NCBI GenBank assembly: GCA_026415985.1
Contig: JAOAGA010000067.1
Span: 1-9,204 of the forward strand
Source of the DNA: Pseudomonadota bacterium
GTDB taxonomy: Bacteria; CALINM01
Length of the DNA stretch: 9,204 bases
Reading direction: 5' to 3'
The notes under the pieces are model-generated. The model had not been told where the DNA came from, made no database searches, and worked only from the letters and a program-made list of their open reading frames with translations. Position numbers and translations under genes: made by a program. Below are positions 1-8,479 of the stretch, piece by piece (the stretch's first letter is position 1; every line of letters starts with the position of its first letter).

Positions 1-63
1 GTTGTAAATTAATAGATTTGAATCTAAACTATGGAAAAAGGAAAAAAATTTTTAGGAGAATAT

Positions 64-225
64 GTGAAAGAAATATTGTTTGTAGTTTTTATACTTGTTG
101 TATGGTATTTAGTTACACAGGTTGTCTTTCCAAAACTTGGCATTCCTACCTGAGGTTATGATCCGGACGCTGGGTCTCAGTGTTCCACTGAAAAGACTAC
201 CAAAAAGAAAGATTTAAAGAACTAA
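64..225 (+). CDS. Small single-pass membrane selenoprotein, Sec encoded by in-frame TGA at 151-153
   Basis: I do not recognise the family. The frame begins with a short charged segment and one hydrophobic helix (roughly 20 residues, ending VVF). It then reads PKLGIPT, an in-frame TGA, GYDPDAGSQC, and a lysine-rich tail ending at TAA 223-225. A hairpin with the expected position and loop of a bacterial SECIS element follows the TGA, so I read the TGA as selenocysteine. With GTG 64 as start the protein has 53 residues, with Sec at 30 and Cys at 40, a possible selenenylsulfide pair. GTG 64 is preferred because AGGAG at 54-58 precedes it by 5 nt. The first in-frame ATG, at 31, would add 11 residues but has no visible Shine-Dalgarno. 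Both helix flanks are basic, so membrane topology is unclear. The gene converges on the methyltransferase and overlaps its end by 12 bp. The alternative is a 29-40 residue peptide that simply stops at 153. A redox role is inference only. Confidence 0.72.
165..186 (+). promoter_or_regulatory. Bacterial SECIS-like hairpin immediately downstream of the TGA
   Basis: The RNA can fold with G165-C186 and G166-C185, a bulged U184, then A167-U183, C168-G182, G169-U181 (wobble), C170-G180, U171-A179 and G172-C178. This leaves the five-base apical loop GGUCU at 173-177. The stem starts after 11 nt of spacer from the TGA and the loop begins at the 20th base after it. In E. coli fdhF the SelB-binding hairpin also starts 11 nt after UGA, and its GGUC loop carries the essential G and U. 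Here the bulged U is on the 3' side of the stem rather than the 5' side. A competing shorter stem (160-164 with 172-176) is possible. There is no U-tract, so this is not an intrinsic terminator. Confidence 0.7.
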
Positions 226-3447: not shown

Positions 3448-4236
3448 ATGATAAAAGTTTTTTTTGAAAATCTGTTCAACAGGTATTTGGGAAAACCTTA
3501 TAATTACATATCTTTTCTTGTCGTCGTTATTGATAGTACGATAAATAATTTTCCAAAAGGTATTAAAGCAGTAGAAAGGGTCACATTAAAGCAGATTTAT
3601 TTTACAGGAATTGAAGCTGTAAAAATAACCCTTCAGATAGGTTTTTTTATGGGTATAGTAGTAATAACACAGATAACCTCTTTTATAAAAGGGCTTGGAG
3701 GTATAAATCTTGTTGGTAAGATTATTACTATTGCAATTGTCAGGGAAATTTTTCCACTCCTTATTGCGGTAATTATGATTGCCCGAAGTGGTACCGCAAT
3801 AACCTCTGAACTTGCCTTAATGAAAATAAATAATGAGATTAAGACCCTGAGAATACTAAATATTGATCCGCTTTACTATCTGATCTTTGCAAGGATTTTA
3901 GGTTTTGTCATTTCAATTACCGTTGTTACCGTTATAGGAACCGCTACCGCTATATTGTCGGGTTCTCTGACAATCTATCTTATCCAGAAAATATCTGTTT
4001 CTGATTTTTTTGAATATTTTTTTATAAACCTTAACATATTCGATGTAACATTGTTTTTATTAAAATGTTTCTTTTTCGGGATCGTAATATCTACTATTTG
4101 TTCTTTCTACGGTCTATCAGTCGGAAAAAGTCCTACTGAGATTCCACAGGTTTCCACGAAGGCGGTAATGAGTTCCTTTTTCTATGTTTTTTTAATTAAT
4201 GTTATTCTCGATTTCATGGTGTTAATATGGCAGTAA
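3448..4236 (+). CDS. mlaE: MlaE-family ABC transporter permease (MCE-type lipid transport)
   Basis: A 262-residue multi-pass inner-membrane protein matching the usual length of MlaE/TtgB permeases. The family's signature block covers residues 98-148: IVREIFPLLIAVIMIARSG, then TSELALMKINNEI, LRILNIDPLYYL and FAR. It corresponds to the REIGPVL, ARVGSAIAAELGTM and DALRVMGVDPI segments of typical members. The C-terminal stretch with GLSVGKSPTEIPQVSTKAV (222-240) is the conserved final loop before the last helix. In the E. coli Mla system MlaE dimerises, binds MlaF on the inside and the MlaD hexamer on the periplasmic face, and moves phospholipid between the two membranes. It is the first gene of a four-gene operon, and the next start lies inside its last codons. 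No strong Shine-Dalgarno is visible before the ATG. Direction of transport is not decidable. Confidence 0.92.
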   Translation: MIKVFFENLFNRYLGKPYNYISFLVVVIDSTINNFPKGIKAVERVTLKQIYFTGIEAVKITLQIGFFMGIVVITQITSFIKGLGGINLVGKIITIAIVREIFPLLIAVIMIARSGTAITSELALMKINNEIKTLRILNIDPLYYLIFARILGFVISITVVTVIGTATAILSGSLTIYLIQKISVSDFFEYFFINLNIFDVTLFLLKCFFFGIVISTICSFYGLSVGKSPTEIPQVSTKAVMSSFFYVFLINVILDFMVLIWQ

Positions 4237-4874
4237 TAATTGAGTTGGAGGATGTTAAGATAAATTACGAAGGTGAGACCCTTCCTTCTATAAATTTAAG
4301 GGTTGAAGAAGGAGAGATTGTTGCTATTGAGACAGAAAGAGATTTGTATGACAGGGCTTTAAACGACTTTTTTGTCTGTGAAAATCTCGATTTTTCAGGT
4401 AATGCAAATATTTTTGGTATTAACTTATCTAAAACAGATAATCTATCTATACAGGAAATAAGAAAAAATTTATCTTTGATTTCCTTAGCCTATCCTTTAG
4501 TTTCAAACTTGAAATTAATAGAGAACGTTTACCTCACCTATCTTTTTCATTCAGATGAACCAGAAAAAAAGATATTTGAAAAGGCTTACAGAATTATTGA
4601 TTCATTGGGAATAGCCAATAAATTTAATCTTAATCCTGCTTTTTTAACCAATTTTGAGAAAAAACTTGCCCTACTGGCAAGAACATTTATGGTAAACTAC
4701 AAGGTATTAATTTTGTCCCGGTTTTTTAGCGATTTGGATGATTCTAAAAAGCAGTTTTTAGTTGATAAAATACTTGAGCAAAAAAAATTAAATGATAAAA
4801 TTGCTGTTATAATAATAGAGAGAAATATTAAATTACTCCCGATGATAGATTTTGATAAAATTATAAAGGTTTAG
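4227..4874 (+). CDS. Degenerate ABC ATPase-like protein (MlaF position, catalytic motifs lost)
   Basis: This 215-residue protein occupies the MlaF place in the operon and aligns by eye with ABC nucleotide-binding domains, but lacks every catalytic motif. The strand GEIVAI (29-34) normally leads into Walker A; here ETERDLYD follows, without glycines or the lysine. A Q-loop-like stretch, PLVSNLKLIENVYL (90-103), remains. The LSGGQ region reads FLTNFEKKLALLARTF (139-154). Walker B VLILSRFF (160-167) has Ser and Arg where Asp and Glu belong. The D-loop SDLD (168-171) survives, and the H-loop position reads IIIERN with no His. The gene is intact, overlaps the MlaE-like gene by 10 bp and ends one base before the MCE gene, so it appears maintained rather than decayed. 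It is somewhat shorter than typical MlaF. It may be a structural adaptor or the inactive half of a heterodimer. The fold call is inference from residual motifs and context. Confidence 0.8.
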   Translation: MAVIIELEDVKINYEGETLPSINLRVEEGEIVAIETERDLYDRALNDFFVCENLDFSGNANIFGINLSKTDNLSIQEIRKNLSLISLAYPLVSNLKLIENVYLTYLFHSDEPEKKIFEKAYRIIDSLGIANKFNLNPAFLTNFEKKLALLARTFMVNYKVLILSRFFSDLDDSKKQFLVDKILEQKKLNDKIAVIIIERNIKLLPMIDFDKIIKV

Positions 4875-4875
4875 T

Positions 4876-5868
4876 ATGGCGACATTACAGGACATAGATC
4901 CCCGTTTTAAAAATTTAGGGAAGAAGGTCTTCTTATTTACTCTTTTAGGCCTACTAATAATCATTATCTCGGTCTATTTTTTGGGAAAAGAGAAAGATTT
5001 ATTCTCCAAGAAGATAAGACTATATTTTATTACCAATTCAGCCTTTGGTTATTCTGAAGGTATGGCAGTTAAACTGGCAGGTTTCAGGATAGGGAAGGTC
5101 TCTAAAATAACCTTAGATGAGCAGGCAAGGGTAATAATAGACCTTAGCATACAAAAAAAATATCTTAAATGGATCAGGGAGGATTCCACCGCTTCCTTAA
5201 AGAAAGAAGGATACATTGGAGAAGATTTTATAGAAATAAGTTTTGGTTCTCTTGATAAACCGGAACTTAAAGATGATATGGAAATAAAATTTCAGAAGGC
5301 AAAAGGCATAGAGGATATTGCGAAGGAAATTGTAGAGGAGTTGAAGCCTGTAGCCTTAGATGTTAAAAACTTTGTCATGTATATTACAGATCCGAAAGGA
5401 GATGTAACAAGAATATTGAAAAACACTACAAACCTCACTTCCGAGCTTACCAACACCGCTCTTCTGGTTCAGGACCTGTTAAAAGAAACCAAGCCGGTTG
5501 TTAAAAACATAGAAGAGATCACAAAAAACATCAAAAAGGAGACGGAGGAAATACCCAAACTTAGGGCTGAAGTTAACAAATCTCTGACAAATATAGAAAA
5601 CTTATCGGAAATCCTAAAGAAAGATATACCCAACATGTTAGAAAACGCCAATATAACAATAAACAATCTTAATAAAATTACCGGAGATATTGCTAAAGAG
5701 GTTCCCAAAACCGGTTCAATTATAGATAACGTCGAGGGGATAACCGACAATACCAAAGATATTACAGAATCAATAAAAAGAAGCTGGTTTATAAGACGCA
5801 ACCTCCCTAAATCTCCTTTACCTTCGCTGTTACTTCCGGAGATAAAAAGAGAGAGTGAAAAGAGATGA
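4876..5868 (+). CDS. mlaD: MlaD-like MCE-domain lipid-binding protein
   Basis: A 330-residue periplasmic protein anchored by one N-terminal helix (about 17-36). The MCE domain covers about 46-126, with the conserved GMAVKLAGFRIGKVSKI (62-78) and a GYIGEDFIEISFGS end (112-125). MCE domains form hexameric rings with a central hydrophobic pore for lipids. Residues about 143-300 are predicted to be long amphipathic helices rich in repeated Asn, Ile, Leu and Lys, as in the MCE proteins whose helices extend a tunnel across the periplasm. The tail SWFIRRNLP (303-311) resembles the SW(L/F)(F/I)R motif common near the end of such proteins. E. coli MlaD is only about 183 residues, so this is the longer type. 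The start lies one base after the upstream stop, and the stop overlaps the next start as ATGA. Translational coupling is likely. Confidence 0.93.
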   Translation: MATLQDIDPRFKNLGKKVFLFTLLGLLIIIISVYFLGKEKDLFSKKIRLYFITNSAFGYSEGMAVKLAGFRIGKVSKITLDEQARVIIDLSIQKKYLKWIREDSTASLKKEGYIGEDFIEISFGSLDKPELKDDMEIKFQKAKGIEDIAKEIVEELKPVALDVKNFVMYITDPKGDVTRILKNTTNLTSELTNTALLVQDLLKETKPVVKNIEEITKNIKKETEEIPKLRAEVNKSLTNIENLSEILKKDIPNMLENANITINNLNKITGDIAKEVPKTGSIIDNVEGITDNTKDITESIKRSWFIRRNLPKSPLPSLLLPEIKRESEKR

Positions 5869-6956: not shown

Positions 6957-8252
<1,296 letters not shown>

Positions 8253-8253
8253 T

Positions 8254-8340
8254 GGAGAGGTGGCCGAGTGGTTGAAGGCGGTGGTCTTGAAAATCACTGT
8301 ACCTGCAAGGGTACCGGGGGTTCGAATCCCTCCCTCTCCG
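8254..8340 (+). tRNA. tRNA-Ser(TGA)
   Basis: An 87-nt class II tRNA. Acceptor GGAGAGG (8254-8260) pairs with CCTCTCC (8333-8339), and the discriminator is G8340, as usual for serine. Anticodon stem GTGGT/ATCAC encloses loop CTTGAAA, giving anticodon TGA at 8288-8290, which reads UCA. The long variable arm around TACCTGCAAGGGTACC and the T-loop TTCGAAT are present. CCA is not encoded. The gene starts one base after the serS stop. A run of seven T (8341-8347) follows directly and may help end the transcript. Confidence 0.97.
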
Positions 8341-8349
8341 TTTTTTTAA

Positions 8350-8389: not shown

Positions 8390-8479
8390 GGAGAGATGGC
8401 CGAGTTGGTCTAAGGCGCACGCCTGCTAAGCGTGTGTACCCCCTAAAGGGTACCGAGGGTTCAAATCCCTCTCTCTCCG
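8390..8479 (+). tRNA. tRNA-Ser(GCT)
   Basis: A 90-nt class II tRNA. Acceptor GGAGAGA (8390-8396) pairs with TCTCTCC (8472-8478), and the discriminator is G8479. Anticodon stem CACGC/GCGTG encloses loop CTGCTAA, giving anticodon GCT at 8425-8427, which reads AGC and AGU. The variable arm has the stem GTACCC/GGGTAC around CCTAAA, and the T-loop is TTCAAAT. CCA is not encoded. Acceptor and T-arm closely resemble tRNA-Ser(TGA), but anticodon and variable arms differ, so this is not a simple recent duplicate. Confidence 0.97.

Follow-up and report, generated by a model that had tools for sequence, protein, structure and literature searches.

Gene, translation start and predicted protein

The first 225 nucleotides of the window (the whole 9,204-nucleotide stretch of DNA analysed here) hold a short plus-strand reading frame that is crossed by a TGA, and the question is whether this triplet is a stop or a selenocysteine (Sec) codon and, if it is decoded, what such a small membrane protein could do. 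If TGA is translated as Sec, no stop interrupts the frame between 31 and 222; it contains one TGA, at 151-153, and ends at the TAA at 223-225. An earlier note, made from the sequence alone, had described a frame that passes through one helix to PKLGIPT-TGA-GYDPDAGSQC and closes at TAA 223, with a Cys ten residues past the proposed Sec. Both the coordinates and the translation were reproduced, and the Cys codon is the TGT at 181-183.

The start had been left between ATG 31 and GTG 64. GTG 64 is probably the true one, since a Shine-Dalgarno motif (AGGAG, 54-58) lies 5 nt before it and the nearest relatives, L101 and L102 from the same family of genomes, begin at the aligned residue (MRGIIFLL... 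and VRSLIFLL...). ATG 31 has no Shine-Dalgarno motif upstream in the window sequence and is the less likely alternative; the contig begins 63 nt before GTG 64. The predicted gene (64-225) would thus encode 53 residues, MKEILFVVFILVVWYLVTQVVFPKLGIPT-U-GYDPDAGSQCSTEKTTKKKDLKN, with Sec at position 30 and Cys at position 40. A single transmembrane helix (residues 2-25, nucleotides 67-138) comes first, then PKLGIPT-U30-GYDPDAGSQ-C40, and the protein closes with a short hydrophilic tail. In the AlphaFold2 model, built from an alignment of 42 rows, residues 2-25 form a helix of high confidence (pLDDT of about 90 over residues 1-20), the remainder is disordered, and the mean pLDDT is 69.

Selenocysteine machinery and genetic code

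The source genome is a draft of 1.57 Mb and 84% completeness. The search for selA, selB, selC and selD proposed in the earlier note returned the complete set, namely selA (C111, E 1.5e-102), selB (C119, 373 bits), selD (C33) and a tRNA-Sec with the anticodon UCA, TCA in DNA (C143, 76.6 bits), so the objection that selB or selC might be missing falls away. SelD carries a Sec site of its own (SASGUAAK, in which TGA encodes the residue that is usually Cys or Sec), and therefore at least one other selenoprotein is encoded in this genome. Recoding of UGA as another amino acid was ruled out, because ordinary genes in the window also end with TGA (open reading frames ending at 5868 and 6689) and the genetic code is thus standard.

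The family is also confined to genomes that decode Sec. Among 386 sampled genomes, selB was found above the cut-off in 170, and all 42 family-positive genomes belong to this group (chance P about 4e-17 without correction for kinship). Its share of the sampled Sec decoders is therefore about 25% (42/170), and it occurs in none of the sampled genomes without selB.

Homologues and the codon at the Sec site

A search with the single sequence against 98 genomes found relatives in distant lineages, with TGA at the same place. A profile of ten sequences run against the 386 genomes gave matches in 47, of which 42 were accepted (E about 1e-6 or better), nearly all with one TGA. A scan of named genomes was queried with only the peptide upstream of the Sec site and is for that reason free of selection for TGA. 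The 73 loci that it identified belong to Acidobacteriota, Desulfobacterota/Geobacter relatives, Eisenbacteria, Krumholzibacteriota, Planctomycetota, Myxococcota, Chloroflexota, Nitrospirota and Chthonomonadales, with TGA at the site in 72 loci, TGT (Cys) in one and TAA or TAG in none. Furthermore, 195 genomes from the phylum of G177 (named members of the same sub-type are Myxococcota) yielded 35 matches, all with TGA.

Overall, the family is distributed over about nine phyla, and its carriers include the isolate Geomonas sp. Red32 (L154). The family motif after the helix is P[K/R]LG[V/I]xTU. Across about 140 homologues, AT-rich genomes included, TGA occupies the site except in one Cys and one Arg form, and neither TAA nor TAG occurs there. 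The Cys form (L193) is the only homologue of the kind that the earlier note had suggested looking for; it has lost the hairpin described below, while its genome retains selB and tRNA-Sec. The Arg form (L082, in G248 around 3140) has CGA at the Sec position, stops shortly past the Cys and lacks the hairpin; its genome contains selB, and the gene is probably a copy in decay.

Viral contigs contained no relative, and the family profile had no match among PDB sequences. Synonymous and non-synonymous changes around the TGA were counted in one related group, whose sequences are too diverged for this comparison.

A SECIS-type hairpin downstream of the TGA

The SECIS-like hairpin that had been noticed after the TGA is located at 165-185, where 165-172 pairs with 178-185 around the apical loop GGTCT (173-177), whose first base is number 23 in a count from the U of UGA. 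Hence the element that characterizes bacterial selenoprotein genes, a bSECIS hairpin just 3' of the UGA with G or GU in its apical loop, is found here. L101 and L102 keep the inner 6-bp stem by means of two compensatory changes. Folded alone, the segment 154-195 adopts a competing pair of hairpins as its minimum-energy structure instead of the SECIS hairpin; a ribosome that has halted on the UGA would mask the opening bases of this alternative fold.

The hairpin is a feature of the whole family, at the same place. With a stem of at least 6 bp, a loop of 3-6 nt with G among its first two bases, and a loop start 20-28 nt from the U of UGA, it was detected in 84 of 110 genes, against a mean of 4.2 and a maximum of 11 in 100 dinucleotide shuffles; when the test was shifted downstream, only 2-3 of the 110 genes passed. 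In 32 genes of equal spacing, double changes occurred in all seven stem pairs and 95.5% of the cells pair, compared with 26-42% in slid versions. As these rows were picked for their common hairpin position, this comparison leans towards structure and is support rather than an independent test, whereas the count of 84 in 110 involves no such choice. The mean folding z-score of the tails (-1.0) is weak by itself, and the positional hairpin test is more informative.

The tail and its thioredoxin fusions

The 134 non-identical tails average 26 residues and are hydrophilic and almost devoid of aromatic residues. Cys is present in 126 of them, exactly one in 121, whereas 23-41% of such tails would be expected to contain Cys at a Cys frequency of 1-2%. 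Its commonest position is U+5 (79 cases), and in other tails it lies near the C-terminus. It is not universal, since eight of the tails lack it, including that of the fusion L095. Part of the conservation after the Cys (VESRR) may reflect the RNA sequence of the hairpin and not a constraint on the protein.

In two loci, L090 (G079) and L095 (G221), the frame does not stop at the TGA but leads on to a thioredoxin domain, which Pfam recognizes in L090 with E 8e-29. Located C-terminal to the Sec segment, the domain brings a WCxPC motif of its own, either WCGPC or WCAPC. The earlier note's second objection, that homologues might all end at the TGA with nothing conserved beyond it, is therefore not borne out, given the tail Cys and these two fusions.

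The Sec side of the helix and the tail are probably cytoplasmic according to the positive-inside rule, because the flank on the C side is more positive than that on the N side (mean net charges of +2.1 and -0.3).

Gene neighbourhoods

Neighbouring genes were collected within 1.5 kb at 112 loci; since the reading frames were called mechanically and kinship was not corrected for, the counts are descriptive. Thioredoxin-like genes were the most frequent (21), followed by DUF302 (16), FmdB-type zinc ribbon (15), ArsR (13) and YgaP-like TM genes (10), with rhodanese (9), CsoR (4), Sec-containing Grx-like (4) and OsmC (3) genes being rarer. Most neighbours lie on the same strand, and the commoner ones are several-fold denser within 1.5 kb than at 1.5-4.5 kb, many of the counts being small. 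The identities of representative neighbours were confirmed by Pfam. RND pump genes also appear (AcrB at 14 loci, MFP at 9 and TolC at 5), AcrB mostly more than 1.5 kb away.

The neighbours differ between phyla. The layout is thioredoxin-FmdB-CsoR-Sec gene in Chloroflexota, DUF302-Sec gene-YgaP TM-TolC-MFP in Acidobacteriota and thioredoxin-Sec gene-DUF302-rhodanese in Myxococcota. In Nitrospirota it is rpoA-rplQ-Sec gene, with no adjoining redox gene, and none was called next to the Sec gene in the closest relatives of the window gene, L101 and L102. In Eisenbacteria-type genomes (L105, L130, L144, L164, L165 and L182) the order ArsR, thioredoxin-like, Sec gene, YkuD, deoxynucleoside-kinase-like is conserved. 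The adjoining Grx-like genes of L087, L091, L110 and L159, of the AhpF N-terminal type, carry TPTUP[YH]CP and represent a second selenoprotein.

Regarding function, the rhodanese, YgaP-TM and DUF302 neighbours, together with the ArsR and CsoR regulators, suggest sulfane-sulfur stress (a link between DUF302 and persulfides was not found in the literature search). OsmC and the Grx-like genes suggest peroxides, and the RND pumps leave room for metalloids.

The rest of the window has features of its own. Three consecutive reading frames at 3448-5868 resemble a Mla-type ABC system (MlaE, MlaF and MlaD), the ATPase-like one being unusually short (215 aa). A frame recognized by its sequence as seryl-tRNA synthetase-like (6960-8252) is directly followed by two tRNA-Ser genes (8253-8341 and 8390-8479) with TGA and GCT anticodons; seryl-tRNA synthetase also charges tRNA-Sec. 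On the minus strand, Rfam matches below the threshold to a plastid psbl-rps4 3'UTR family (8426-8479 and 8289-8340) correspond to the antisense of these tRNA-Ser genes and are a model artefact.

Proposed mechanism and alternative explanations

Taken as a whole, the explanation favoured here, with a probability of roughly 0.6, is that the family consists of bitopic membrane microselenoproteins with a cytoplasm-facing selenol/thiol pair that would be recycled by thioredoxin and would serve in handling reactive sulfur or hydroperoxides. Its parts differ in strength. On the sequence data, the window gene almost certainly encodes a selenoprotein, in which the UGA at 151-153 would be decoded as Sec by SelA, SelB, SelD and tRNA-Sec under the direction of the hairpin just downstream. 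Sec and the tail would stand at the cytoplasmic face of the membrane. It is likely that Sec and Cys act as a redox pair, which may form a selenenylsulfide during turnover with the tail Cys (Cys40 in the window) as the resolving partner. Thioredoxin would reduce this bond, as the two fusions and the frequent thioredoxin neighbours suggest, and the odds that it is the reductant are about even. The assignment of sulfur or peroxide as the substrate is more tentative; the protein could serve to reduce reactive sulfur species or hydroperoxides at the membrane. The earlier proposal of a thiol/selenol redox role at the membrane surface therefore stays conjectural, with the thioredoxin fusions and neighbours now in its support.

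It is scarcely credible that the UGA merely terminates a transmembrane peptide of 29 residues and that the sequence downstream is untranslated. Such a peptide would fit the position of the most conserved residues (P, L, G and T) before the TGA and the failure of the window tail to fold into the SECIS hairpin at minimum energy. It would not account for a stop that is never TAA or TAG, even in AT-rich genomes, for the exclusive presence of the family in selB genomes, or for the conserved tail Cys and the covarying hairpin; the in-frame thioredoxin fusions and the loss of the hairpin in the Cys homologue also speak against it. A selenium-responsive leader, in which Sec supply would set readthrough and downstream expression while the peptide is incidental, is very improbable as well. 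The thioredoxin fusions and the strong conservation of helix and motif as protein oppose it, and although a leader would look like this short frame with a SECIS, which often stands near the beginning of an operon that includes redox genes, the gene is also often the last one or precedes a convergent gene; the window and L162/L163 are examples.

A different activity is unlikely, namely that the membrane-anchored selenol binds metal(loid)s or selenium, for example in delivery to RND efflux pumps or as the partner of a regulator. The RND, ArsR and CsoR/metal-sensitive regulator genes nearby would agree with this, yet AcrB is mostly beyond 1.5 kb, and the thioredoxin fusions, like the neighbouring rhodanese, OsmC and Grx-like genes, speak rather for thiol redox chemistry.

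Relation to known selenoproteins

SELENOK and SELENOS are small eukaryotic single-pass membrane selenoproteins without a thioredoxin fold, in which a disordered tail bears the Sec, and SELENOS forms a Sec-Cys selenenylsulfide that thioredoxin can reduce. The window family may resemble them in action and falls outside them by sequence: the Pfam library presumably contains SELENOK and SELENOS models, and the Pfam-A scans of family members gave no match to either. Moreover, in the window family Sec adjoins the helix and is followed by a tail of about 26 residues, and these proteins are bacterial, with a SECIS of the bacterial type just after the UGA.

The bacterial Sec-containing thioredoxins and Grx-like proteins (AhpF N-terminal, TIGR02187, UxxC) share a relation to redox processes with the family, a Grx-like gene adjoining it in some loci and thioredoxin being fused to it in others. 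In contrast to them, the window family itself lacks a thioredoxin fold (the AlphaFold2 model gives a helix and then disorder), and its U and C are mostly four residues apart (U at 0, C at +5). The near lack of Cys forms recalls GrdA, the glycine reductase selenoprotein A, which was long thought to have none (PMC12013277, PMC1794560), although several homologues with Cys have been described since (PMC12013277). Nevertheless, GrdA is unrelated, being a soluble subunit with CxxU.

No match at or near the cut-off was obtained in NCBIfam 20.0 with two sets of members or in Pfam-A with the first set, and the 119 prokaryotic selenoprotein families tabulated in a 2026 review (PMC13188914) include none of like description. 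The earlier statement that the protein belongs to no nameable selenoprotein family holds against these three resources. A stop-codon survey from 2007 did not report the family (PMC1914089), and no described equivalent appeared in the literature search, for which subscription papers, preprints and supplements were mostly out of reach. Earlier searches probably missed the family because it almost always occurs in the Sec form; deep-Sep, for instance, depends on homologues with Cys, and its authors write that every known selenoprotein has such homologues (PMC12013277). Being almost exclusively Sec-containing and short, the family lies in a blind spot of current annotation.

It is an evenly balanced proposition that these widespread, near-obligate-Sec bitopic microselenoproteins constitute a membrane-tethered, thioredoxin-recycled selenol system that is present in about a quarter of the sampled Sec-decoding bacteria and invisible to searches based on Cys homology. 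The family points to a selenol chemistry at the membrane surface for which the literature search found no bacterial description, and it can be tested because it is present in the isolate Geomonas sp. Red32. These findings suggest that bacterial selenoprotein counts are too low, and the family is a case in which Sec seems hard to replace by Cys.
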